From positions 1-47,591 of the forward strand of contig NZ_FXTX01000013.1 in NCBI RefSeq assembly GCF_900182795.1: a DNA stretch of 47,591 nucleotides, in the 5' to 3' direction. Positions 29,678-46,995 of the stretch are shown here, in pieces. The position numbers and the translations under genes were made by a program. Origin of the DNA: Venenivibrio stagnispumantis. Lineage in GTDB: Bacteria; Aquificota; Aquificia; Aquificales; Hydrogenothermaceae. Under the pieces are notes generated by a model. That model saw only the letters and a list, made by a program, of their open reading frames with translations. It searched no databases and had not been told where the DNA came from. Every line of letters starts with the position of its first letter. The stretch's first letter is position 1.

Positions 29678-30037
29678 TTAATGATGATGATGGTGCCCAC
29701 ATGATGAAACCTCTTTAATTTCCGGTAGCAAGCCATTTTTGTAATCAGAAATAGCTTGTTCTATAGATATTCCTGCAGGAATTTTATAAGCTTTCATACC
29801 TAAGCTTTTTATGACTTCAAAAGCCCCACCACCCAGATGGGTAGTGAGGACTACTTTAACACCGTTTTTGCTTAAAATATTAGCTATATTCCTGCCACCG
29901 GTTTCTTCTGCCTTTATAATCTCTATATTTGAATTTTCATCAATAATTGCAAACAATCTTGCTCTTCCAAAAGCATCAGAAACAACATATTTAGTTCTAT
30001 CTTTACTATCCGGTTTGACAGGAATACCAATTTTCAA
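29678..30037 (-). CDS. NifX/NafY-like dinitrogenase cofactor domain protein with natural His tail
   Basis: The 119-residue protein has the NifB/NifX-type fold pattern: MKIGIPVKPDS, VSDAFGRARLFAIIDE, GGRNIANILSKNGVKVVLTTHLGGGAFEVIKSLGMKAY. Proteins of this fold bind iron-sulfur or iron-molybdenum cofactors or metals. The C-terminus ends in Ser-Ser-Cys-Gly followed by five His, a built-in metal-binding tail. The start is TTG 30037, nine bases after GGAGG, directly behind cydB. No nitrogenase genes are in the window, so a role tied to cytochrome bd or metal handling is more plausible than nitrogen fixation. Confidence 0.8.
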   Translation of the reverse strand: MKIGIPVKPDSKDRTKYVVSDAFGRARLFAIIDENSNIEIIKAEETGGRNIANILSKNGVKVVLTTHLGGGAFEVIKSLGMKAYKIPAGISIEQAISDYKNGLLPEIKEVSSCGHHHHH

Positions 30038-32850: not shown

Positions 32851-35082
32851 TCAAATCAAAAGATGAGCTACCTGTCCTAAGGACAATCCGCCATCATTTG
32901 GTGGAACTTTTTTATGTATCAATATCTTAATATTATTTTTATGAGCTAAATCTATTATTTTTTCAACTAAAGGTTTATTTTGGAAAACACCACCTGATAA
33001 TCCTATTGGTATGTCAAAATTTTTCCCTATATCAATCACAATTTTTGCCAAGGTATTTATAAATCTTGAGATTTTAACTTCTGTATTGGATTTATCATCT
33101 AATAAAGATAAGATAATTTCTTTCCAAATTATTTTATTTTCATTTATAGAGTATGGGTAAAAATCTTTAATTGAGTTATCATATAAATCTTCCATAATCA
33201 TTCCGGATTGTCCTTCATAAGATAATATCTGCTTTATATCCAGTAGAGATGAAACTGCATCAAATAATCTTCCTACTGAAGAAGTTAAATAACAATTTAT
33301 ATTTTTTTGCCAAATAAGATATAGATTTTCAATCTCTTTTTCTGAGAAAGCTTTAAAAAATGGGATATCTTTGCCAAATATTTCAAATAAAATAGAAATA
33401 GCAACTCTTCTTGGTTCTTTTACTGCTTTTTCTCCACCTATTAGTTTAAAATAATCAAAATACAATATTCTATTAAAAGATTGATAACTGGAAATTAAAA
33501 ATTCTCCACCCCATAAATTACCATCTAACCCGTATCCTGTTCCATCCCAGCAAACAGCCAAAATCTTTTCTTCTTCTTTTATTTCATTATCTACCATTAC
33601 TGATAATGCATGAGCAAAATGATGTTGAACTTTTACATGTTTTATAGAATAATTTTTAGAGAAATCTTCAGCAAATTTTGTAGAATAATATCTTGGATGT
33701 AAATCAGATAAAATAACTTCCGGTTTAAAATCATATAAATCTAAAAATTTATAAATAGTATCTTCAAAGGATTTACAGGCATCTAAGGTTTCTAAATCTC
33801 CTATATGCTGAGATAATATAGCTTTATTTTCAAAAGCAATTGCTATGGTATTTTTTTGATGTCCTCCAACAGCAAGCACTTTCTTATTTAAATTAAACGG
33901 CAATTTTATAGGTAGTGGGGCATATCCTCTTGATCTTCTAATAAAAGAGATATTGTTACTAATAACTCTCACTACACTATCATCTACTCTATTTTCTATA
34001 TCCCTATTGTGAATTAATATATAATCTGTAAATACAGAAAGCTTGTTAAAAGCTTCTTCGTTATCTTTTACAATTGGTTCATCTGATAAATTTGCTGATG
34101 TCATTACTAATGGATTTTCATAATCATTTAGTAATAGATAATGAAGTGGAGAATAAGGAAGGAAAACACCTAATTTCCTCAAATTTGGAGCTACATATTG
34201 ACTTATTTTTTTATTTTCTCTTATTTTTACGATAACAATCGGTCTTTCCGGAGATAAAATCACAGCTTTTTCAAAATCATTTATTATTGTATATTTTTCA
34301 ATTTCATTTATATTTTTAAACATTACAGCAAAAGGCTTTTCTCCTCTATTTTTTCTTTTCCTTAACTCTTTTAGTGGATAATCATTTGTTGCATCAGCTA
34401 CAAGATGAAAACCACCTATTCCTTTGATTGCTATAATTTTTCCTTTTTTTAATAAATTTATTACGACTCTTAAAGCTTCATCGCCTCTTGCTATAAATTC
34501 TTTTTTAGATGTATATAAAGAAATCTCTGGACCACATCCAGGACAAGCGTTAGGCTGGGCATGAAATCTTCTATCTAACGGATTATGATATTCTTCCTTA
34601 CAAATTTCACACATTTTAAAATTTTTCATTGTTGTATTTTCTCTATCATAAGGAAGCTTTTGAATAATACTAAACCTTGGTCCGCAATTCGTACAATTTG
34701 TAAAGGGATATCTATATCTTCTATTATTTTTGTCATTTATTTCTTTTAAGCATTCATCACATATAGATATATCTGGAAGTATAAATACCTGCTTTTCTTT
34801 ATTTGATTTTGAGCTTTTTATTTGAAAATTTTTGTATCCAAAAAAATCTAATTCTTCTATATAGGAAGAAAATATATGGGCAAGTGGTGGTTTTTCAGAA
34901 AATAAGGATACTAAAAATTTATCTATATTTTCTTTTTCCCCTTCTACTTCTATTAAAACCCCTTCTGTATCGTTTAAGACATAACCTTTTAGATTATATC
35001 TATTTGCTATATTAAAAACAAAAGGTCTAAAACCAACTCCTTGAACGGCTCCTGTTAATTGAATTTTCAGCCTTCTATACAA
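32851..35082 (-). CDS. hypF: Carbamoyltransferase HypF
   Basis: HypF activates carbamoyl phosphate and loads the HypE C-terminal Cys, the first step in making the cyanide ligands of [NiFe] hydrogenases. In order: an acylphosphatase domain (VQGVGFRPFVF), four CxxC zinc knuckles with 18/24/18 spacing, a YrdC-like domain (KRKNRGEKPFAVMF and TSANLSDEP), and a Kae1-like domain with HHFAH and CWDGTGYG. All catalytic signatures are intact. The start is probably TTG 35082, five bases from GGAGG; the frame reads four codons further to TTG 35094. It overlaps the end of the divergent paralogue. Confidence 0.95.
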   Translation of the reverse strand: MYRRLKIQLTGAVQGVGFRPFVFNIANRYNLKGYVLNDTEGVLIEVEGEKENIDKFLVSLFSEKPPLAHIFSSYIEELDFFGYKNFQIKSSKSNKEKQVFILPDISICDECLKEINDKNNRRYRYPFTNCTNCGPRFSIIQKLPYDRENTTMKNFKMCEICKEEYHNPLDRRFHAQPNACPGCGPEISLYTSKKEFIARGDEALRVVINLLKKGKIIAIKGIGGFHLVADATNDYPLKELRKRKNRGEKPFAVMFKNINEIEKYTIINDFEKAVILSPERPIVIVKIRENKKISQYVAPNLRKLGVFLPYSPLHYLLLNDYENPLVMTSANLSDEPIVKDNEEAFNKLSVFTDYILIHNRDIENRVDDSVVRVISNNISFIRRSRGYAPLPIKLPFNLNKKVLAVGGHQKNTIAIAFENKAILSQHIGDLETLDACKSFEDTIYKFLDLYDFKPEVILSDLHPRYYSTKFAEDFSKNYSIKHVKVQHHFAHALSVMVDNEIKEEEKILAVCWDGTGYGLDGNLWGGEFLISSYQSFNRILYFDYFKLIGGEKAVKEPRRVAISILFEIFGKDIPFFKAFSEKEIENLYLIWQKNINCYLTSSVGRLFDAVSSLLDIKQILSYEGQSGMIMEDLYDNSIKDFYPYSINENKIIWKEIILSLLDDKSNTEVKISRFINTLAKIVIDIGKNFDIPIGLSGGVFQNKPLVEKIIDLAHKNNIKILIHKKVPPNDGGLSLGQVAHLLI

Positions 35083-37144
35083 AAATTCCTCCAAAAGATA
35101 TATTTATATTATCTATAGGCAATCTTTCATTCATAAAGACATTATAATGATGTAAATGTTTTAACATTTTTCCGGTAAATACAGGTAATCCAAAGAAATT
35201 CCCTGCTAATATTACATTCTCTATTTTTAAATCTCTTCTTATTAAATTTACTTTATCTTGTAAGAAATTTTCTAAACTTTCAAAAAATGAAAATGCTAAT
35301 ATTTCATTAGGTGTATCTGCTAATTTATAAGAGATTATGCTTCTTATCATTTTCCTCCAATCAAGTAAAAATTCATTATCCTTCTCTAATATTACAAAAT
35401 CTATTATTAATCCTCTTTTTTCTATAAAATTTAATGCTTTAGATTCAAAATTTTTTATACTCATCTCTTTTGAAATATTTAAATCATTATTTATTCCGAT
35501 AATAAAAGAAATCAAATCTAATACATCTGATATATTCTGGGATTCTTGATAATTAGTTTCTCCATCTTCAAATTTAAAAGGAAATTTTTTTATATAATTG
35601 GAAATTAATCTTTTTCCTTCTTCATCTAAATTTGCTATCTCTTCTAATACATATCTTAAACTATTTTTTCTATCTTTATAAATTTTTAAAGGTAATAGTT
35701 TGATTATAGGCTTTATCTTTTTTGATTTAGTTTTTGCTGCAAGAATAGAATTATTATCCATTGATAAATAAATTCCTATAAATGGTTCATCAATCATATT
35801 ATGTTCTGCAAGAACTGAATAAAAAGCAGCTTCATAATCTTTAAATGATTTTTGATTTTTATAAGAAATAGGTATATATTCATATTCACTGTTTAATAGA
35901 TTTACATTTTCCAAGTTTGGATTTAAATTTTCAAGATTTTCCAATATTCTACTTTTTTTATCTATCAGATATTCATTTTCTCCTATATAAATTGCAGCAT
36001 AATCTTTAGCTATTGATAAGGTATTAAAATTTTTATTTGTTCTTAATATTACAGGTAATATAGATTTTTCACCATCTTTTATTAAAATTTTACCCTGGGC
36101 TACAAACATTTCTAAATCTCTTTGTTTATTAATAATCGGTAAATCAAAATCTATCCCCTTTTCTATTTTGTTAAATTCTTCTTCATCTATTTCTTTAACA
36201 AAAGCAAAATCTATACCAATTTCTTTTAAATATTGGGCTAATATAATAAAAATAGGGTCATCCGGTAATTTAAATTTTAGTTGATATTCACCTGTATAAT
36301 TAAATATATCTGAACTTTCCCTTATTTGAAGATTTACGATAGGTTTTTCTTGAGATGCTAATACTTTAAATTCTTTTTCATTTATATATACCATTTCATT
36401 TATTTTTTCCGGATTTGTGATTAACACAATAAAATCTTTATCCTTTAAAGATTTTCCTATCTTAAAATAACCATTTAATGTTTTTATTTTAATTATTTCT
36501 CCTTTTAAAATTAAATTAGCCAATGCTTTAAATAAATTTTCTCTATCATTTGGTGTAAATACTAATCTTTCTGTATCTTTTATTTTAAAAAATAAAGGAA
36601 TAAAACATTCTGGACAGTTAATAAGAGGATAGTTATATTTATTAGAATTTTTATTTTCAAACTCTTCCTGACAGTTTTTGCATAATTGAAAATATTTAAG
36701 ATATGTATTTTCTCTTTTAAAAGGATATGTATAAGTATAGGCATACTGAAAACCACAATAATTACAAGAAATAAAGGGATACAAATATCTTCTACTATTT
36801 TTATCAAATAATTCTTTAGAGCATTCAGGACATATTGATTTATTAACCGGTAATATATTAATATTTCTATTTTTTATTTTAAAACCATCTTCTTTAATTT
36901 CTTCATCAAATACAGAAACATTGGAATCTTTCATAAATATTGAATATGGCAGCGAAATACCTAAGGTATGAATGAATTTTTCTAAACTTTCTTTATCTGA
37001 ATTGGCAACTATTGTAATAATATTATTTTTATATTCTACAAAACCTTTTATTGAATTTTCTTCTGCAATTTTTTTTATAAGATATAAGATTCTTTCATCT
37101 CCAAAATTATATGTTATATCTATCTTAATACCTAAATTTTCCAT
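35075..37144 (-). CDS. Divergent HypF paralogue, apparently non-catalytic
   Basis: The 689-residue protein is colinear with HypF but has lost its active-site signatures. The zinc-knuckle region is fully kept: CxxC at 105/108, 127/130, 155/158 and 177/180, with exactly HypF's 18/24/18 spacing and shared strings such as DKNSRRYLYPF. The acylphosphatase motif VQGVGFRPF is absent. The YrdC-like part keeps ASQEKPIVNLQIRE but lacks the KRxxxKP and TSAN motifs. The Kae1-like part lacks HHxAH and the DGTGYG loop. Its end (PIDNINISFGG) aligns with HypF's PPNDGGLSLGQ. ATG 37144 follows GGGAG. It overlaps both the protease gene and hypF, so it is co-expressed with them. A scaffold or regulatory partner of HypF is the simplest guess. 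Confidence 0.8.
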   Translation of the reverse strand: MENLGIKIDITYNFGDERILYLIKKIAEENSIKGFVEYKNNIITIVANSDKESLEKFIHTLGISLPYSIFMKDSNVSVFDEEIKEDGFKIKNRNINILPVNKSICPECSKELFDKNSRRYLYPFISCNYCGFQYAYTYTYPFKRENTYLKYFQLCKNCQEEFENKNSNKYNYPLINCPECFIPLFFKIKDTERLVFTPNDRENLFKALANLILKGEIIKIKTLNGYFKIGKSLKDKDFIVLITNPEKINEMVYINEKEFKVLASQEKPIVNLQIRESSDIFNYTGEYQLKFKLPDDPIFIILAQYLKEIGIDFAFVKEIDEEEFNKIEKGIDFDLPIINKQRDLEMFVAQGKILIKDGEKSILPVILRTNKNFNTLSIAKDYAAIYIGENEYLIDKKSRILENLENLNPNLENVNLLNSEYEYIPISYKNQKSFKDYEAAFYSVLAEHNMIDEPFIGIYLSMDNNSILAAKTKSKKIKPIIKLLPLKIYKDRKNSLRYVLEEIANLDEEGKRLISNYIKKFPFKFEDGETNYQESQNISDVLDLISFIIGINNDLNISKEMSIKNFESKALNFIEKRGLIIDFVILEKDNEFLLDWRKMIRSIISYKLADTPNEILAFSFFESLENFLQDKVNLIRRDLKIENVILAGNFFGLPVFTGKMLKHLHHYNVFMNERLPIDNINISFGGIFV

Positions 37145-37670
37145 TATAAGCTCCCACAAAATTTAATACTATCTCTTCTAAAGAAAATTTATTAACCTTT
37201 TTATATTTGATATTTAATTTTTTTATTTCATTCAAAATTGTTTCTATAAGGAAATTAAAATTTTTCTCTAAGGACTGGGTTAAACCTATCTCTGATTTTG
37301 AAATATCTTCCGGCACTACACCTATAATAACAACATCTGCCATTTTTCCTTTTAAAGCTGATAATTCTAACATTTGCAAAACTTCTACTTCGTGGGCTGT
37401 TTGATGGTAAGAACCTATTCCTACAAGTTGTTGTGGAGTTAATCTATAAATTGAACCAGGTTCATCGTTAATGGATATTGTATCTATCAAAATAATATTA
37501 TCATAATCTTCAAAATATTCCATTAATCCAAAACCGGCAGTTCCGGCATCTATTAAGTCAATATTTGGATTAAATTTATAATTCCCCTCTAAATACTTTA
37601 CAGCAAAAACACCAACTCCTTCATCTTTAAAAAGAATATTTCCAATACCCAATATCCCAATTTTTTTCAT
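37125..37670 (-). CDS. [NiFe] hydrogenase maturation protease (HyaD/HupD family)
   Basis: This endopeptidase removes the C-terminal peptide of the hydrogenase large subunit after nickel insertion. Family marks are GILGIGNILFKDEGVGV with the nickel-sensing Glu, the Asp in LIDAGTAG or DTISI, and the His in TAHEVEVLQM. It is 181 residues from ATG 37670, which is five bases from GAGG (GTG 37676 is inside that site). The likely substrate is the membrane-bound hydrogenase large subunit upstream, whose C-terminus has a cleavable tail. Confidence 0.9.
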   Translation of the reverse strand: MKKIGILGIGNILFKDEGVGVFAVKYLEGNYKFNPNIDLIDAGTAGFGLMEYFEDYDNIILIDTISINDEPGSIYRLTPQQLVGIGSYHQTAHEVEVLQMLELSALKGKMADVVIIGVVPEDISKSEIGLTQSLEKNFNFLIETILNEIKKLNIKYKKVNKFSLEEIVLNFVGAYNGKFRY

Positions 37671-37689
37671 ATTCACCTCTTTTTAAAGG

Positions 37690-37753: not shown

Positions 37754-38443
37754 TTACTGAATTTTTTTATATTTATATCCACCAAAAACTATACCAATAT
37801 CACCTTCTTTCCAGAAAATTGTTCTCCATACTTGATAATAAATATGAAAAATAACCCAACTTAAAATCAACCACATAGTCAGATGATGAACAATTCTAAC
37901 CCCTGCCAATCCACCAAATACATACAATGTCCAATCAGTTGCAATATGTAAAAGCCAAGGCCACCAACTACCTATAGCTGATAAACCACTTTCTAATCCT
38001 ACCACATACATTTGAAAACCTGTAAATAACATAAGTAATAACATTAAATGTAAAATAGTAAACCAAACTACATTAAAACTATCCAAATGGGATGAATCGA
38101 AATTTTTTCTTCTATTTAAAGTAATTAAATTGAGAAAAACTTCCCAAAACTCTCTAATATTTTGTGCATTTGGTATAAGTTTTTTATAAGGTTTTTCAAA
38201 TCTACTAAAGAAATATAGATAAGCAATTATAATAGCTGTTACATCTAAAAATATTGCTGCTATAAAATGGAAAAATCTATTATATGCCATAATATATTTA
38301 TAAGCAGCAGGTTCTGCTATTAATGCCTGATAATAAGGATTTGCTATATATAATCCGGTTATAACTGCAATAACTATAGAAAATGCATTAATCCAATGTA
38401 TAATACGCATAGTTGCTGACATTCTTTTAATTTTTTCATACAT
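37754..38443 (-). CDS. hyaC: Ni/Fe-hydrogenase b-type cytochrome subunit
   Basis: This 229-residue membrane cytochrome passes electrons from the periplasmic hydrogenase to quinone. It has four main hydrophobic helices, with haem-ligand His residues in RIIHWINAFSIVIAVITGLYI, NRFFHFIAAIFLD and the later helices (VRIVHHLTMWLILSWVIFHIYYQVWR). It overlaps the large subunit gene by eight bases. The length fits the HyaC/HupC family. Confidence 0.92.
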   Translation of the reverse strand: MYEKIKRMSATMRIIHWINAFSIVIAVITGLYIANPYYQALIAEPAAYKYIMAYNRFFHFIAAIFLDVTAIIIAYLYFFSRFEKPYKKLIPNAQNIREFWEVFLNLITLNRRKNFDSSHLDSFNVVWFTILHLMLLLMLFTGFQMYVVGLESGLSAIGSWWPWLLHIATDWTLYVFGGLAGVRIVHHLTMWLILSWVIFHIYYQVWRTIFWKEGDIGIVFGGYKYKKIQ

Positions 38444-40172
38444 TGCACATACCTCCTACCGGTTCTACTTTATAAACTCCAAGTTCTTTTCCTTTTGTAT
38501 CTATTATATGAACAGCACAGGCAATACATGGGTCAAAAGAATGAACCGTTCTGAGAATTTCAAGAGGTTGGTCTGGATTTGCTACTTTTGTATTACTTAC
38601 TAAGGCAGCTTCATAAGCACCCATTCTTCCTTTGTAATCTCTTGGTCCCGCATTCCAGGTAGATGGTACTACAGCTTGATAATTTGCAACTTTACCATCA
38701 ACAATTCTTACCCAATGTCCTAATGCACCTCTTGGTGCTTCTGATAATCCATATCCTTTTAGTTCTTTTCCTTTTGTTAAAGCATCATAATCAAACTTCG
38801 TCCATGTTGATAAATCTCCACGGGCACAATTTGTAGCAAGCTCATCTGCCCATTGTAACATCATATCTGCCATCATCCATGTTTCAATTGCTCTTGCAGC
38901 TGTTCTTCCTACTGTTGAGAATAGAGCAGAAGCTGGCAATCCTGCAAGTTTTAAAGCTTTATCTACATAATTTTTTATTCTTTCATCCCCTGAAGCATAT
39001 CCTACTATCATTCTTGCAAGAGGTCCAACTTCTACTCTTGTATCATCATAAATAGGAGATTTTATCCATGAATATTTTTCATTTGTTTTTAATAATCCAT
39101 CTTTATCAAATCCTGTATAATTTGGAATTGTTTGTCCATCAAAAGGATGAAGAGGTTTATCTGCATTCTCATATTTATACCAACTATGGGTTACATCTTC
39201 TGTAACTTTTTCCTGGTTAAATGGTATCACCTTAGACAAATCTTTGTTTAAAACAACTCCGGATGGGAATAAAGTTTTTCCTTTATAAAGAGGTGTATCA
39301 TCAAGAGGTAAATCTCCATAAGCAAGATAATTTCCAAGACCTGCTCCAACACCATTTAAAGCTTCATCTTTATAAGCTTCTGCTGCCATTAAAATATCCG
39401 GAATATAAGCTCTCAGTATAAAATCTCTTGTTTTTTCCAGTAATTCTTTGAATAATGCATGTCTAGATGGATTTTCTAAATCTTGAACACATGTAACACC
39501 ACCAACAACTATTGATTGAGGATGTGGATTTTTACCTCCCCATATTGCCATCATTTTAGCTGCATCTCTTTGTACTTCAAGAGCATCAAGATAATGTTTG
39601 GTTGCTATTAGATTTTGTTCAGGACTGAATTTGTATGATTTGTTTCCCCAGTATGCATTTGCAAAAGGTCCCAATCTTCCTGCTTTAACAAATTTAGTTA
39701 ATCTTTCTTGTACTGCTTTATAATCAGTAGGAGAGTTTGACCATGGATTGTCAGAATAATTTTCTGCTATTTTAGCTGCTTTGTAAGGGTCTGCTTTCAA
39801 TGCAGAAACTATATCTACCCAATCCAAAGCATGAAGATGATAAAAATGAACAACATGGTCATGAAGATATAACGAACCTTCTATTAAATTTCTAACAAGC
39901 CTTGCATTTTTAGGTATTGTTATTCCTAGTGCATGTTCAACAGCTTTTATACTTGTCCAGTAATGAACTCCAGTACAAACACCACATATTCTCATTGCCA
40001 TTAATCCGCAATCCCTTGCATCTCTACCTTTCAAAATCAGTTCTATTCCTCTAAACATTGTAGAAGAGCTATAAGCATCAATTATCCTGTTATTTTCATC
40101 AATTACAACTTCTATTCTTAAATGTCCTTCTATTCTTGTTATTGGATCTACTACTATATGTTTTGTAGCCAT
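38436..40172 (-). CDS. hyaB: Membrane-bound uptake [NiFe] hydrogenase, large subunit
   Basis: The nickel-iron site is ligated by Cys63 and Cys66 (MRICGVCTGVHY) and by the C-terminal pair in SFDPCIACAVH (Cys549 and Cys552). After His555 a 23-residue tail ends in GGMCNV. It is the peptide removed by the maturation protease once nickel is in place. The 578-residue protein belongs to the Group 1 respiratory hydrogenases. It has no export signal of its own and should travel with the small subunit through the Tat system. Confidence 0.95.
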   Translation of the reverse strand: MATKHIVVDPITRIEGHLRIEVVIDENNRIIDAYSSSTMFRGIELILKGRDARDCGLMAMRICGVCTGVHYWTSIKAVEHALGITIPKNARLVRNLIEGSLYLHDHVVHFYHLHALDWVDIVSALKADPYKAAKIAENYSDNPWSNSPTDYKAVQERLTKFVKAGRLGPFANAYWGNKSYKFSPEQNLIATKHYLDALEVQRDAAKMMAIWGGKNPHPQSIVVGGVTCVQDLENPSRHALFKELLEKTRDFILRAYIPDILMAAEAYKDEALNGVGAGLGNYLAYGDLPLDDTPLYKGKTLFPSGVVLNKDLSKVIPFNQEKVTEDVTHSWYKYENADKPLHPFDGQTIPNYTGFDKDGLLKTNEKYSWIKSPIYDDTRVEVGPLARMIVGYASGDERIKNYVDKALKLAGLPASALFSTVGRTAARAIETWMMADMMLQWADELATNCARGDLSTWTKFDYDALTKGKELKGYGLSEAPRGALGHWVRIVDGKVANYQAVVPSTWNAGPRDYKGRMGAYEAALVSNTKVANPDQPLEILRTVHSFDPCIACAVHIIDTKGKELGVYKVEPVGGMCNV

Positions 40173-40175
40173 TGT

Positions 40176-41423
40176 TTATACCTCCTTATTTGCTGAATTT
40201 TCTTTTTTTCCGGCTAAAGCACTTGATATTGCATGAATACCAATACCTATCGCCGTTGCTGTCAATATTGTTAAACCGAATTCATCAACTGTAGATTCTA
40301 CCCCTCTTTCTGCTGGTGGTGAAATAGGTGAAGCTGCAACTGGTCTTTCTGTTGCATATTTATCCCAAAAATCAGGTTCAGAACATCCTATACAACCTCT
40401 ACCCACACCTATTGGCCAGTTTGTGCCGTCATTATATCTTATTATTGAACAGTTATTGAATGTAAAAGGTCCTTTACATCCCATTTTATATAAACAGAAA
40501 TTATTTTTTGCTCCTTCATCACCCCATTCTTCTACAAATTCGCCTGCATCAAAATGTGCTCTTCTTTCGCAGTTATCATGTATTCTATATCCAAAAGCAA
40601 ATTTCGGTCTAAGTAAAGAATCAAGCTCCGGTAAACTACCTGTCATTACATAATGAAGTAAAACACCAACTATATTTGCAGGATTTGCAGGACAGGCAGG
40701 AATATTTACTATTGGTTTTCCTTTTACCACATCCATAACTCCAACTGCACCGGTTGGATTTGGATGGGCTGCAGGAATACCTCCAAAAGAAGCACATGCT
40801 CCAACAGCAATAACTGCTGCGGCATCTTTAGCTAATCTTTTAACTCTTTCAACACCTGTTTCCGGATGTCTTCCTGTTGTAAATGCATATTCCATTTTTA
40901 CAGGAATAGAACCTTCAACAAATAAAAGATATTTACCTTTAAATTCTTTTACTGCATCTTCAAGACATTTTTCTGCTTGATCTCCAGCAGCAGCCATTAA
41001 TGTTTCCTGATATTCCAAAGATATATAATCTAAAATTAATTCGTCTACTGTTGGTGCTGATGACCTTATCAAAGCCTCTGTATTTCCATCACAGTCTTGA
41101 ATATTTATCCAAATAACAGGTATTCTATTCATTAGCTCTGCTGCTTGAGCTACCAATGGTTCAAAAGATGGAGGAAGCATTAACATTGCGGTTGTGGCAG
41201 ATACCCACTTTAAAAAATCCCTTCTTGAAATTTCCCATGTTTTTAGGTATTCATGTAACTTTAAATCTTCTTCTCTTATCGGCCTGCTATTAGCTAAGTG
41301 TTGGAGATGATTTTCAATTTGCCTGTAAAGAGATTTGTAGTATTCATCCCCTTTATTTGTGTTGATTAAATTTGTTGGTTTTGTGAAAAGCTGTCGGAGC
41401 GAATCTCTACTGAAGAACTGCAT
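40176..41423 (-). CDS. hyaA: Membrane-bound uptake [NiFe] hydrogenase, small subunit
   Basis: The Tat signal SRRDFLKW is at residues 66-73, with the hydrophobic part to about 95. It is preceded by a long hydrophilic extension, whereas relatives usually have about 10-30 residues before the twin Arg. The start is nevertheless well supported by GGGAGGT before ATG 41423. The proximal cluster motif reads DCDGNTEA with Cys111; Asn114 stands where many Group 1 enzymes have a second Cys. Medial and distal cluster ligands are in the region from HDNCERRAHF to GRGCIGCSEPDFWD. A C-terminal helix (GLTILTATAIGIGIHAISSAL) anchors it in the membrane. Confidence 0.94.
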   Translation of the reverse strand: MQFFSRDSLRQLFTKPTNLINTNKGDEYYKSLYRQIENHLQHLANSRPIREEDLKLHEYLKTWEISRRDFLKWVSATTAMLMLPPSFEPLVAQAAELMNRIPVIWINIQDCDGNTEALIRSSAPTVDELILDYISLEYQETLMAAAGDQAEKCLEDAVKEFKGKYLLFVEGSIPVKMEYAFTTGRHPETGVERVKRLAKDAAAVIAVGACASFGGIPAAHPNPTGAVGVMDVVKGKPIVNIPACPANPANIVGVLLHYVMTGSLPELDSLLRPKFAFGYRIHDNCERRAHFDAGEFVEEWGDEGAKNNFCLYKMGCKGPFTFNNCSIIRYNDGTNWPIGVGRGCIGCSEPDFWDKYATERPVAASPISPPAERGVESTVDEFGLTILTATAIGIGIHAISSALAGKKENSANKEV

Positions 41424-41505: not shown

Positions 41506-41850
41506 TTATATTTGCATCTCCAAGGATAAAAGATACATATCTTCACCATCTAAAATATTTATATTAAAGCTTTTACAATAAGGACAGATAAATTCATTTT
41601 CTTTTATAACAAACTCTTTCTTACAATCTTCACATATTGCTATGATTTCTTGTATAATCATTTCAAGTTTAGCATTTTCACAAATGGTTTTTTCTTTAAA
41701 TGTATCAAAAGCAAGTTCCAATAAATGTGGCTCTATTCCTGATAATCTTCCTATTTTAACAACAACTTTATCTACAGATTTAGCATTATGTTCCTTTGCA
41801 TTTTTTTCTATCAAATCTAATAAACTTTGGACAACAGAGAATTCATGCAT
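41506..41850 (-). CDS. hypA: Hydrogenase nickel-insertion protein HypA
   Basis: The 114-residue nickel metallochaperone begins [11 protein letters not shown], with His2 in the nickel site. It carries a zinc loop of two CxxC pairs (CEDCKKEF and CPYC). It normally hands nickel to the large subunit with the GTPase HypB, which is not encoded here. The ATG overlaps or touches the hypE stop, giving the order hypC-hypD-hypE-hypA. Confidence 0.93.
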
Positions 41851-42849
41851 TTAACATATCCTTGGTAGTAATTCTCCTGAAGGAGGTTCCATTATTCTTT
41901 TTGTTCCATGGGTTGTTTTTAAAATAACTTTCTTATCTGTTCCGTCGATTACTTTTCCAATAATCTCTGCTTCTTTACCGAGAGGATGCTTTTTTAGAAT
42001 TTCCAATAAACTTTCTGCATCATTTTTATCAACTGCAAACACTATTTTGCCTTCATTAGCAAGGTTATAACTTTCTAAACCAACTAATTCGCATAACCCC
42101 TGTACTTCATTTTTTATTGGAATTTTTCCTTCTTCTATTTCTATATTAACATTGGAGCTGAAAGCCCATTCATTTAAAACAGCAGATAATCCACCTCTTG
42201 TTGGATCTCTCATTGCTTTTATTTTAATATCATTATTTATCACATATTCTACTAAATCCCATAAAGATGCACAATCAGATTCTAAATCAAGCTCCATTTC
42301 CATACCTTCTCTTTCTGCCATTATGCAAGCACCATGATCTCCTATTGTTCCGGATACAATAATAATATCACCTTCAGATAAATTGGAAGCAGATAAACCT
42401 TCATAAATAACTTTTCCAATACCGGCTGTATTTATAAAGATTTTATCTATACTACCTTTTGGTACAACCTTAGTGTCTCCTGTAACAATTAAGACCCCTG
42501 ATTTTTTACTTTCTTCTGCCATTGATTTAACTATCTTTTCTAAATCATCGTAATCAAAACCTTCTTCAATAATGAAAGATACACTTAAATATAATGGTCT
42601 TGCTCCCATCACTGATAAATCATTTACTGTTCCGGCTATAGATAATTTTCCTATATTGCCTCCTTTAAAAAATATCGGTGAAACAGTAAATGAATCTGTC
42701 GTAAAAGCTATTTTTGAGTTTATATCCAAAATAGCAGAATCTTCCATTTTTTCTAATATCTCATTTGAAAAATATTTAAAAAATAAATCTTTGATTAATT
42801 TTTGAGTTTCTTCTCCACCACCGCCGTGAGATAATAAAATCTTCTTCAA
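41851..42849 (-). CDS. hypE: Hydrogenase maturation protein HypE
   Basis: HypE accepts the carbamoyl group from HypF on its C-terminal Cys and dehydrates it to thiocyanate with ATP. The AIR-synthase-like fold is evident (LSHGGGGEETQKLI, FTTDSFTVSPIFFKGGNIGKLSIAGTVNDL). The protein ends exactly in PRIC, the modified Cys being the last residue. It has 332 residues and begins two bases after the hypD stop. Confidence 0.95.
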   Translation of the reverse strand: MKKILLSHGGGGEETQKLIKDLFFKYFSNEILEKMEDSAILDINSKIAFTTDSFTVSPIFFKGGNIGKLSIAGTVNDLSVMGARPLYLSVSFIIEEGFDYDDLEKIVKSMAEESKKSGVLIVTGDTKVVPKGSIDKIFINTAGIGKVIYEGLSASNLSEGDIIIVSGTIGDHGACIMAEREGMEMELDLESDCASLWDLVEYVINNDIKIKAMRDPTRGGLSAVLNEWAFSSNVNIEIEEGKIPIKNEVQGLCELVGLESYNLANEGKIVFAVDKNDAESLLEILKKHPLGKEAEIIGKVIDGTDKKVILKTTHGTKRIMEPPSGELLPRIC

Positions 42850-42851
42850 TT

Positions 42852-43967
42852 TTAAACCTCTTTTATACTGTATTTATAATAAGCAGCACAGGCTCCCTCA
42901 GAAGATACCATACATGCACCAACCGGATTTTCCGGCTTACATGCTGTGCCAAATATTTTACAATCATAAGGTTTTGCTTTACCTTTTAATATATCGCCAC
43001 AAATACATAATTTATGGTCATCTATTGGTGTATCTGGAAGAATATCTTTGAAAATATTTTCTGCATCTAAATAACTATACTCTTTTTTCAATTTTAATGC
43101 TGAAAAAGGTATATCTCCAATGCCTCTCCATCTAAAACTTTCTCTCAATTCTAAATATTTATTAATCATTTCTTGTGCTTTTTTATTTCCTTCCCAATTA
43201 ACAGCTCTTGAATACTGAATCTCTACCGTGCTTTTTCCTTTTTTAAACTGTTTTATTATCATCAATATACTTTCCATAATATCAACTGGTTCAAATCCGG
43301 CTACAACAACAGGTGTATTATATAAATTTACTATTTCTTTATAAATTTTTGCACCGGTGATTACAGACACATGGGATGGCCCTATAAATGCATCTATATT
43401 GCTATCTTTACTATCCATTATTGCTTTAATAGGTGGTGGAACCAAAACATGGTTAATATGGAAATAGATATTTTTAATATTTAAATTAATAACTCTTTCT
43501 ATTAAAGCTGCTGTCATAGGTGTCGTGGTCTCAAATCCTATAGCAAAATATATTATATTTTTATCCGGATTTTTTAATGCTATATCTAATATATCAAATG
43601 GAGAGTATAAAACTTTTATATTTTTACCTTTTGCTCTCTCTTTTTGTAATGAACTTTTTGAACCGGGTACTCTTATCATATCCCCTAAAGTTGCAACAAT
43701 ATTTCTTTCATCTTGGGCTAATTCTATTGCATGGTCTATTCTCTCTTTTGGCATTATGCAGACAGGACATCCTGGACCATGTATAAAATTTATATTTTCA
43801 TGTAATAGCTGTTTAATGCCGTATTTCATTATAGTATGGGTATGGCCACCGCAAACTTCCATAATATTTATATTTTCTACAGATTTTGCCTCCTCTTTTA
43901 TTAATTTAGATAATGCTAATATTCTTTTACTGTCCCTGAAATCTTTGATAAAATCTACTTTATTCAT
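42852..43967 (-). CDS. hypD: Hydrogenase maturation protein HypD
   Basis: This iron-sulfur scaffold assembles the Fe(CN)2CO unit with HypC. Landmarks are EVCGGHTHTIMKYG with the iron-binding Cys, HGPGCPVCIMP, FAIGFETTTP and the C-terminal cluster Cys residues (KLCICGDILKG, FGTACKPENPVGACMVSSEGACAAYYKY). It has 371 residues and overlaps the hypC end by eight bases. Confidence 0.95.
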   Translation of the reverse strand: MNKVDFIKDFRDSKRILALSKLIKEEAKSVENINIMEVCGGHTHTIMKYGIKQLLHENINFIHGPGCPVCIMPKERIDHAIELAQDERNIVATLGDMIRVPGSKSSLQKERAKGKNIKVLYSPFDILDIALKNPDKNIIYFAIGFETTTPMTAALIERVINLNIKNIYFHINHVLVPPPIKAIMDSKDSNIDAFIGPSHVSVITGAKIYKEIVNLYNTPVVVAGFEPVDIMESILMIIKQFKKGKSTVEIQYSRAVNWEGNKKAQEMINKYLELRESFRWRGIGDIPFSALKLKKEYSYLDAENIFKDILPDTPIDDHKLCICGDILKGKAKPYDCKIFGTACKPENPVGACMVSSEGACAAYYKYSIKEV

Positions 43968-44208
43968 TTTTAAATTCCTCTTCTTCTAACTTGCTTATAA
44001 TCTCTTCATATACTTTAATACTTTCAAGGGCATCTTCTTCATTCAATTTTGTTATAGCATATCCTACATGAATAAGGACATAATCTCCAATAGATACTTC
44101 TTCTGGCATTAAATCAAGAGAAACTTTTCTTTTTACCCCCATTGTATCCACAATTGCAAAATTGTCTTCTAATATTTCTACTATTTTAGATGGTATTGAT
44201 AAACACAT
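43960..44208 (-). CDS. hypC: Hydrogenase maturation chaperone HypC
   Basis: This small chaperone begins MCLSIPSKIV, with the essential Cys2 that holds the Fe(CN)2CO unit with HypD. The 82-residue OB-fold protein has a helical acidic tail. GAGGTGAAA precedes the ATG. It is the first gene of the hypCDEA operon, just behind the Group 2 hydrogenase large subunit. Confidence 0.94.
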   Translation of the reverse strand: MCLSIPSKIVEILEDNFAIVDTMGVKRKVSLDLMPEEVSIGDYVLIHVGYAITKLNEEDALESIKVYEEIISKLEEEEFKNE

Positions 44209-44278: not shown

Positions 44279-45646
44279 TCAATGAGTAGTACAAACAGAA
44301 CATATATCAAAACTTCTTAAAACCATATGGGCTTTTATGTTAGAGTCTAAACCGATAATTGCTTTTTCCGCCGGTGAAGGATATTTTTCATCTCTTGATG
44401 TAAGATTCCATACGGTAGGTGTAATAATATTATATTCTTCTATGTTTCCATTTTTTATAACAACTTGATGAATAAGAGAACCTCTTGCAGCTTCAGTAAT
44501 ACCTGTGCCTTGACCGGAAAGTTTCTTAATATCCATCTGAGGTTTTATATAAGAACTTTCTTTTAGGTTTATACTCAGTAACCAGTTTTTCATAGAAAAA
44601 AGCAGTTTTATAATTTCATCTAATCTTGCTAAAACCCTAACAAGAAAACTATCAGAAAATTTATTTAGCATATCCAGAAAAAGATTATCTTCATTTAAAA
44701 TTCTTCTTGCAAGAGGACCTGTTTCCATAGGAAGTTTATCATAATGGACACCTTTAGCCCATGTATATCTTTTTTCATCTAATTTTATATCAAAATTTTT
44801 AGTCAAATAAGAATAACTATCTATTTCTTTTATTTTATTAAGATCAAATTTTACCTTTTTCTTTTTTATAACTCCTTTTTTTATGCAAGGTAAAATATCA
44901 CCTAAGGTTATAAATCTTTTATAAGCAGTTCCTATATTCTCCATATTTAAACTGAAAGTCATTTCTATAAATCTTTTTAAATCTCCATCTTTTAATATAT
45001 TAATAAGCTCTTCAAAAGACGAAGTAGCTAAATATTTTTCAGCATCTATTCCCAGTATTTCATCTTCAAAAAATTTTATTAAATAATCTACAATAGATAT
45101 TGCAGAAATTATATCAGTAGTTATCGGATCAGATACAACACCACCTGGAACAGCATAAGATGTATGAGGCCATTGACCTCCAAAAATGGATATAACCTTA
45201 ACAATTTCACTACTTGCCTTTAAGCCTTTTTGCCATTGCAAACCTTTTATAGGCTCATAATATATTTTCATATTTTCATTAAAATATAAAAAATCCGGTA
45301 TCAAAAAAAGATAAAACCATCTAATATGATTTTGAATAATTTCTGCTGCTAATGTAATATTTCTAATTAATTTTGCTTTTTCTGTAATTTTTATCTCATA
45401 TCCATTTTTATTATATATATCTTCAATAGCATTAACCGTAGCTATAAGATGGGCATGTCCACATATACCGCAAACCCTTGGAGAAATAACTAAAGCATCC
45501 AAAACAGGTTTATTTCTTAATATAAATTCAAATCCTCTAAAATTAGGAGCTATAATTAATGCATCTTTAATCGTATTATCTTCCCACATTAATTTTAATT
45601 CAATCTCTCCCTCAACTCTATTCAAAATCTCTTTTTTTATTTTCAT
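44279..45646 (-). CDS. Group 2 (Aquificae-type) [NiFe] hydrogenase, large subunit, without C-terminal peptide
   Basis: The 455-residue protein ligates the metal site with Cys59 and Cys62 (PRVCGICGHAHL) and the final FDICSVCTTH. It stops immediately at the His that in most large subunits is the cleavage point, so there is no tail to remove. The usual DPC is DIC here. Mature-length ends of this sort are known from regulatory hydrogenases such as HoxC. The Group 2d placement is inferred from the small-subunit motif, missing export signal and likely host. It overlaps the small subunit gene by four bases. Confidence 0.85.
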   Translation of the reverse strand: MKIKKEILNRVEGEIELKLMWEDNTIKDALIIAPNFRGFEFILRNKPVLDALVISPRVCGICGHAHLIATVNAIEDIYNKNGYEIKITEKAKLIRNITLAAEIIQNHIRWFYLFLIPDFLYFNENMKIYYEPIKGLQWQKGLKASSEIVKVISIFGGQWPHTSYAVPGGVVSDPITTDIISAISIVDYLIKFFEDEILGIDAEKYLATSSFEELINILKDGDLKRFIEMTFSLNMENIGTAYKRFITLGDILPCIKKGVIKKKKVKFDLNKIKEIDSYSYLTKNFDIKLDEKRYTWAKGVHYDKLPMETGPLARRILNEDNLFLDMLNKFSDSFLVRVLARLDEIIKLLFSMKNWLLSINLKESSYIKPQMDIKKLSGQGTGITEAARGSLIHQVVIKNGNIEEYNIITPTVWNLTSRDEKYPSPAEKAIIGLDSNIKAHMVLRSFDICSVCTTH

Positions 45647-46551
45647 TCTGTTTCTTCCAATTTATTTTCTAATCTCTCATTTTTAAAAGTTTTTGCTACA
45701 CCGGAAATCATTATATATGCTCTTTTAGAAATGCCAAGAGGAATATCCTCAGGAATACCAATATTCTTTTTTGTTTCAAACATATTTTTACGTGGAAAAT
45801 CAAACTCAGTACAACCTATACATGGCATACCTGCTCTTGTTTTTGAAGAAGTATTATTCCATAGAATTTTATTACATGACGAATGGGTCATAGGTCCCCT
45901 ACATCCAAGATCTATAAATAAACAACCTTCTTTTTTACCAAACTCTGTTGTCTCAACCTTCCATTCAAAATATTCATTCCTTATACAGCCGTCATGAGTC
46001 AAATACATATATAACTCTTTTGGTCTGTTATATTTATCTAATTTTATTTCATATCCATAATGCAATTGCAATATTGTTCTAATTATCCATTCAGGATGTG
46101 CTGGGCAACCTGATATATTTATAACAGGATAATTTTTTCTGGTTTTAAAATCTTCGGCCAAATATCTATTTTTCTCTTTAAATTTAAATTGTAGACCTTT
46201 TATATCATCTCTATATAAAGCAGGAATATTCCCAAATGATGCACAATTACCAACAGCTATAATGTAATCTGTTTTTGGAATTATCTTTTCTAATATCTCT
46301 ACAATAGAAAAATTTCCTAATCTGCAGATATCTTTATTCTTTGTAATAGCTCCTTCAATTACTAAAAAATTCAGATTTATATCTCCATTTTCAATTTTAT
46401 CAATAATTTGAAATAAATCGTCGGAATAGCTCATAGCTGGATGATAAAGAATATTTATAGATTTAAGAAATATATCTATATTTTCAGCACAAAAAAAAGA
46501 TTGGGTATTACCATTACAACTAAGTCCCTGTATCCATAATAAATTACTCAT
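45643..46551 (-). CDS. Group 2 (Aquificae-type) [NiFe] hydrogenase, small subunit
   Basis: The small subunit starts directly at the mature fold (MSNLLWIQGLSCNGNTQSFF) with no Tat signal, and it has no C-terminal membrane helix, so the enzyme is cytoplasmic. The CxGN motif (Cys12, Asn15) at the proximal cluster matches Group 2 enzymes such as cyanobacterial HupS. Other cluster ligands are seen around VGNCASFGNIPA, INISGCPAHPEW, THDGCIRNEYFEW and GMPCIGCTEFDFP. At 302 residues it has the normal core size. It is two bases downstream of the TetR remnant. Confidence 0.88.
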   Translation of the reverse strand: MSNLLWIQGLSCNGNTQSFFCAENIDIFLKSINILYHPAMSYSDDLFQIIDKIENGDINLNFLVIEGAITKNKDICRLGNFSIVEILEKIIPKTDYIIAVGNCASFGNIPALYRDDIKGLQFKFKEKNRYLAEDFKTRKNYPVINISGCPAHPEWIIRTILQLHYGYEIKLDKYNRPKELYMYLTHDGCIRNEYFEWKVETTEFGKKEGCLFIDLGCRGPMTHSSCNKILWNNTSSKTRAGMPCIGCTEFDFPRKNMFETKKNIGIPEDIPLGISKRAYIMISGVAKTFKNERLENKLEETE

Positions 46552-46553
46552 AA

Positions 46554-46995
46554 TTAATCACTTTTTAAAGCTCTCCATATATTTTCTGCTATCTCGTTTG
46601 AGTATGATAATAAATCGTACGGAAGAACATTTTCACCATGTAAAAATACAATACCGCCAAGTGGCCCCATTATTGTAACAAAAGCTGTGAAAAAATCCTG
46701 TTGTCTTAAATCTCCTTTTTTTGCTCCTTCCTCTAAAAATATTGCCAATTCTGTAACCACATCACCTACGCATAAAAATCCCTCACATCCTTCCTTAAAG
46801 ACTTCCCTATTAGATAAAAATACTCTCAGAAAATAATCAATCAATTCAGGTTTTTCTGTAGCAAGTTGCAAAAATCTTTCTACAAGAAGATAAATTTTTT
46901 CTTTCGTAGGAATATCCAATTTTGAAATTTCTCTTATTTTTTTGCCAAGTAATTTAGAAGAATATTGCATAATATATTTAGCAAGTTCTTCTTTG
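46554..46995 (-). pseudogene. TetR-family regulator lacking its DNA-binding domain
   Basis: The reading frame encodes a TetR-type C-terminal ligand-binding domain (LLVERFLQLATEKPELIDYFLRVFLSNREVF and later helices). Upstream the homology ends at KEELAKYIMQYSSKLL, the residues that directly follow the helix-turn-helix in this family. Beyond about 46995 the sequence belongs to the insertion element, and a stop lies in frame near 47040. The roughly 45-residue DNA-binding domain is therefore missing. A product from an internal ATG such as 46970 could fold and dimerise but could not bind DNA in the usual way. The gene immediately precedes the Group 2 hydrogenase and was probably its regulator. Confidence 0.75.

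Follow-up and report, generated by a model that had tools for sequence, protein, structure and literature searches.

The contig of Venenivibrio stagnispumantis analysed in this work (NZ_FXTX01000013.1; its 47,591 nucleotides are referred to as the window) encodes, beside hypF, a 689-residue protein which shares the fold, the domain order and the zinc ribbons of the carbamoyltransferase HypF along its full length. By sequence comparison we identify this protein as the full-length form of HydE, known from hydABCDE operons. HydE is found together with a single clade of group-1 [NiFe] hydrogenases and evolves under purifying selection. With moderate confidence, we regard it as a factor without catalytic activity that serves the maturation of the group-1 hydrogenase in its own operon only; it would act later than the HypE/HypF step common to all hydrogenases, probably on the precursor of the large subunit.

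The zinc-binding cysteines of HydE form the pairs C105/C108, C127/C130, C155/C158 and C177/C180, separated by 18, 24 and 18 residues. All eight, and their spacing, are identical to those of the local HypF (C112/115, C134/137, C162/165, C184/187). In profile-profile alignment (hhalign) HydE residues 6-688 were matched to HypF residues 9-743 with a probability of 100% and an E value of 2.2e-46. A preliminary description of the sequence, which had claimed identical spacing and colinearity to the last residues, was right on both. In the Pfam check, zf-HYPF (63.6 bits) and HypF_C_2, the second Kae1-like subdomain (28.9 bits, cut-off 27), passed, but Acylphosphatase remained slightly below its cut-off (21.7 versus 22.5) and the YrdC match was weak (11.8 bits). 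HydE does not reach the cut-off of the HypF equivalog model TIGR00143 (147.8 versus 466.1 bits). Structural similarity beyond the zinc region, named beforehand as a test, is present: in a Foldseek search with the AlphaFold model of HydE the top Protein Data Bank matches were nine HypF chains (best 3vti, E 2.8e-36, 767 columns), followed by TsaD/Kae1 proteins. The overall template modelling score of the model against HypF was low (0.45); domain placement in the model is uncertain because its predicted template modelling score was 0.51 and its mean per-residue confidence (pLDDT) 79.

The 240 columns invariant in HypF were compared with 17 long HydE orthologues. In at least 80% of the orthologues 31 of these columns were retained, including all eight zinc cysteines. 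The acylphosphatase motif VQGVGFRPF and the catalytic asparagine (Asn41) were gone in all 17, as was the metal/ATP site of the Kae1-like domain (HHxxH, DGTGYG, DGG), and the nucleotide site of the YrdC-like domain (KRxxxKP region, TSxN) was substituted or deleted in every one. This pattern is best explained if long HydE can no longer hydrolyse carbamoyl phosphate, form carbamoyl-adenylate or transfer the carbamoyl group, and has kept the fold. The loss of the three sets of motifs had been noted earlier for the window protein, and the HypF fold together with the loss of all three catalytic sites supports the pseudo-enzyme reading given to it then.

The ratio of nonsynonymous to synonymous substitution rates (dN/dS) was 0.10-0.32 for HydE, 0.07-0.15 for HypF and 0.02-0.07 for the large subunit, the values of HydE being about double those of HypF when the same pairs of genomes were compared. 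The selection presumed in the preliminary description is thus purifying, and neither relaxed selection nor frequent disruption was seen. The single orthologue interrupted by stops (G094) is likely a sequencing artefact, because the genome is 55% complete and the genes of its small and large subunit are split as well. A pseudogene or a gene under relaxed selection is ruled out by the dN/dS range and by full-length orthologues, with 38-46% identity, in 17 further Hydrogenothermaceae genomes.

In a tree of HypF and HydE sequences HydE formed one clade (support 100), apart from every HypF sampled. The approximately unbiased test rejected descent of HydE from the HypF of the local family (p 7.5e-6; long branches are involved). 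These two results rule out that HydE came from the local hypF by a recent tandem duplication, and HydE appears to have arisen from HypF through a single old duplication. It has domain order, zinc ribbons and fold in common with HypF but is a separate clade devoid of the three catalytic sites.

In five Helicobacter genomes the genes of small subunit, large subunit, cytochrome b and protease are followed by a gene for a protein of 542-575 residues, to which the hidden Markov model of our family gave E values of 1e-34 to 1e-39. A profile built from Helicobacter HydE only was aligned with the Hydrogenothermaceae family over 507 columns (hhalign, probability 99.8%, E 8.5e-29), whereas its probability against HypF was merely 16.6%; none of the Pfam and NCBIfam models matched Helicobacter HydE above cut-off. 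Because Helicobacter HydE fits the long family and hardly HypF, the long form is the link that exposes the descent of HydE from HypF, a kinship hidden from the Helicobacter end. Helicobacter HydE (HP0635 in H. pylori) is like the window protein in operon slot, profile match and hydrogenase clade, but has neither its length, nor its two zinc ribbons, nor its recognisable HypF sequence. The number of CxxC pairs declines stepwise, from four (Hydrogenothermaceae and the Sulfurimonas type) through two to none (Helicobacter and the Campylobacter type); the short HydE proteins lack the zinc ribbons, which lie between the acylphosphatase and YrdC domains. The radical SAM protein HydE of [FeFe] hydrogenases is unrelated and shares the name only; the window protein had no radical-SAM Pfam match.

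Besides the full-length orthologues, the Hydrogenothermaceae had two fragments at contig edges and one frame-broken copy. The order has two further families; HypF was found in both and HydE in neither. The survey for the same tandem, suggested in the preliminary description, thus yielded orthologues in about 20 other Hydrogenothermaceae genomes, but adjacency to hypF was not general: in most relatives the two genes are apart. The gene comes after small subunit, large subunit, cytochrome b and protease in every genome with context except G080, which retained HydE 137 kb from the hydrogenase.

HydE was detected in 21 of the 23 Hydrogenothermaceae genomes that have an LSU1-type hydrogenase (large subunit of at least 70% identity), and all 21 detections were within this set. 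The contigs of the two remaining genomes (G091, G092) stop short of the expected place; G067, G077 and G095, with LSU1 fragments at contig edges, are uninformative for co-occurrence. No genome without an LSU1-type hydrogenase had HydE, and this also holds for five genomes whose large subunits are more distant (G069, G072, G074, G075, G076). The HydE-bearing large subunits formed one clade (support 95 in the Shimodaira-Hasegawa-like approximate likelihood ratio test), beside a HydE-less group-1 type, and zinc-ribbon HydE accompanied a sub-clade (support 98) whose small subunits carry the motif C-x-G-N. That the protein serves one of the two hydrogenases of the window, as had been proposed, agrees with HydE tracking this single clade and not the second hydrogenase. 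Within one genus (loci L052 and L065), G078 has the hydrogenase with HydE beside hypF, and G079 lacks both and has kept hypF.

A single-sequence pattern search of genome contigs gave no result, but an alignment-based scan found full-length relatives beyond the phylum, in Sulfurimonas (27-30% identity), with the gene order small subunit, large subunit, cytochrome b, hydE, hypF, protease. Two copies lie on plasmids, one of Sulfurimonas paralvinellae and one of Sulfurovum mangrovi, and both are annotated as 'hypothetical protein' in RefSeq. These plasmids (L207, L208) carry whole modules consisting of two hydrogenases, HydE, hypF, hypBCDEA and HypX-like genes, which adjoin integrase or transposase genes. 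Among 298 Campylobacteria genomes, 271 had a match to the C-terminal part of HydE together with a large subunit, 18 had neither, 4 had the large subunit only and 5 HydE only (Fisher p 7e-21, a value that overstates independence, the genomes being related). All four genomes with a large subunit only had distant types, and an interrupted large subunit was present in two of the five with HydE only. No HydE was found in 394 Thermodesulfobacteriota genomes at E 1e-60, a cut-off that bars HypF but may miss short HydE. The protein, earlier taken for an undescribed kind peculiar to the tandem, belongs instead to an old family, mostly split from hypF, whose short members are the known HydE of Campylobacterota.

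In PMC7695850, which cites Benoit et al. 2004, H. pylori hydE is reported to be required for hydrogenase activity, the mutant having normal urease and not being rescued by nickel. The function of HydE is called unknown there and in PMC5557546, and HydE is absent from a 2025 review of how the [NiFe] cofactor is assembled. We found no statement of a relation between HydE and HypF in the accessible literature; an earlier notice may exist in papers behind subscription, among them the first genetic work on hydE.

The cyanide ligands for all hydrogenases are made by HypE and HypF (PMC12134894). Because these two proteins serve all hydrogenases and HydE follows one clade, HydE should act at a hydrogenase-specific step. 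As its binding partner and exact step we infer the following: downstream of the common cyanide-ligand step the HypF-like body of HydE would most likely attach to the precursor of the large subunit, perhaps jointly with Hyp scaffold proteins, and the Fe(CN)2CO/Ni cofactor would thereby be inserted before the protease closes the large subunit. Judged from its DPCxxCxxH motif, the precursor is probably cleaved after the histidine.

Some points weigh against a dedicated large-subunit factor. The same genomic pattern would be expected from a small-subunit or membrane-targeting factor; HydD and HydE have been described as helping to place the complex at the membrane (PMC4992972); three Campylobacteria genomes had a weak HydE-profile match and no detected large subunit (some weak matches are possibly HypF C-termini); and the link to the HydE of H. 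pylori (HP0635) was made through other species of the genus, by way of the gene with the same place in the operon.

HydE could instead chaperone the small subunit, or act as a chaperone in twin-arginine translocation (Tat) export or membrane attachment of the complex, which we consider possible but unlikely. The small subunit carries a Tat signal, the published localisation role fits, and zinc-ribbon HydE pairs with the unusual C-x-G-N of the small subunit and ribbon-poor HydE with CTGC. However, descent from a cofactor-ligand enzyme fits a role in the large subunit or its cofactor more naturally, and a localisation defect can follow from failed large-subunit processing, since HydD is the large-subunit protease. 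In the small subunit of the window, around QDCDGNTEA, asparagine replaces the second cysteine of the proximal iron-sulphur cluster motif. C-x-G-N was found in every small subunit paired with zinc-ribbon HydE, and C-x-[GC]-C in Helicobacter and in HydE-less group-1 hydrogenases. As the reason for HydE this motif fails as a general rule, because Helicobacter combines HydE with CTGC.

We doubt that HydE works at the HypE/HypF step itself, as a heterodimer partner of HypF or a competitor of HypE that regulates or channels carbamoyl-adenylate. Its HypF fold would suit such a role, and hydE adjoins or overlaps hypF in the window, in two genera (g6 and g10) and in Sulfurimonas. The proposal of a HypF heterodimer or carbamoyl-adenylate carrier in the preliminary description nevertheless becomes less likely, because HydE tracks one hydrogenase clade, genomes with other hydrogenases and HypF having no HydE, and because the short HydE of Helicobacter has no zinc-ribbon domain; moreover, in most relatives hydE is not beside hypF.

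HypF acts on the C-terminal cysteine of HypE. By analogy, HydE might be a neofunctionalised pseudo-HypF which reads the C-terminal tail on the precursor of its own large subunit, as HypF reads the tail of HypE, and so gives one hydrogenase clade a dedicated control point for the insertion of the cofactor, an idea that we hold to be about as doubtful. Beside zinc-ribbon HydE the large-subunit extension has 20-24 residues and always a cysteine shortly before its end; in the Campylobacter type it has no cysteine. A cysteine-bearing tail looked promising at first as a marker of HydE dependence but fails as a general rule, HydE-less hydrogenases having it too. That HydE keeps a cryptic activity, for instance on this tail cysteine in analogy to HypF on HypE, is very improbable: all large subunits examined next to a zinc-ribbon HydE have the cysteine and the HypE of the window ends in PRIC, but all known catalytic residues are lost, cysteine tails also occur in HydE-less hydrogenases (Flavobacterium, L071, L218, L219), and the tails beside Campylobacter-type HydE have no cysteine.

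All genes of the hydrogenase region are on the minus strand (Table 1). They are transcribed in the order group-2-like hydrogenase pair, hypC, hypD, hypE, hypA, group-1 small subunit, large subunit, cytochrome b, protease, hydE, hypF. The group-1 hydrogenase is of the membrane-bound type. The hydE reading frame is intact and overlaps the protease gene and hypF by 20 bp each, in agreement with the overlaps described earlier.

Table 1. Features of the hydrogenase region in the window
Feature	Position	Strand	Remarks
hypF, true HypF (carbamoyltransferase)	32851-35094	-	747 aa; TTG start at 35094; TIGR00143 866 bits
hydE, full-length HydE (predicted dead HypF paralogue)	35075-37144	-	689 aa; ATG at 37144; stop codon 35075-35077 included
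Two HypF-type zinc ribbons inside HydE	36605-36832	-	C105 to C180; 8 Cys present in all long HydE
Hydrogenase maturation protease (HydD position)	37125-37676	-	PF01750, 90 bits
Cytochrome b subunit (HydC position)	37754-38443	-	Conserved position; name taken from the operon and from orthologues annotated as cytochrome b/b6
Group-1 [NiFe] hydrogenase large subunit (HydB position)	38436-40172	-	The hydrogenase co-occurring with HydE
C-terminal extension of large-subunit precursor	38439-38507	-	23 residues; end GGMCNV
Hydrogenase small subunit (HydA position)	40176-41423	-	Tat signal; proximal-cluster motif C-x-G-N
hypA	41506-41850	-	Named from sequence and context
hypE	41851-42849	-	AIRS domains; C-terminal PRIC
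hypD	42852-43967	-	Named from sequence and context
hypC	43960-44208	-	Named from sequence and context
Second [NiFe] hydrogenase	44279-46551	-	Large subunit 44279-45646, small subunit 45643-46551; no C-terminal extension; not tracked by HydE

Directly upstream of the second hydrogenase, positions 46554-46970 encode a 138-residue protein with no Pfam match, whose place is kept by homologues in relatives and in Sulfurimonas. A Dinitrogenase Fe-Mo cofactor domain protein with a natural poly-His tail (ending CGHHHHH) is encoded at 29678-30037. An Rfam scan found no RNA features, and comparison with PHROGs gave no match.

HupK/HoxV offers a functional analogy: a dead paralogue of a hydrogenase component working as an accessory maturation factor (PMC12134894). 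It stems from the large subunit, whereas the window HydE stems from HypF, and no match to the large-subunit domain PF00374 was found in HydE by Pfam scan. HydE may be a second example, HupK/HoxV being the first, of how a dead paralogue is put to use for the maturation of one particular hydrogenase. For two decades HydE has been known as essential for the H. pylori hydrogenase, but no function had been assigned to it and no relatives had been recognised. The long form ties it to HypF, which is well understood and whose structures have been solved; this makes specific tests of partner and step possible and accounts for a gene found with nearly every such hydrogenase of Campylobacteria, yet annotated as hypothetical where checked.

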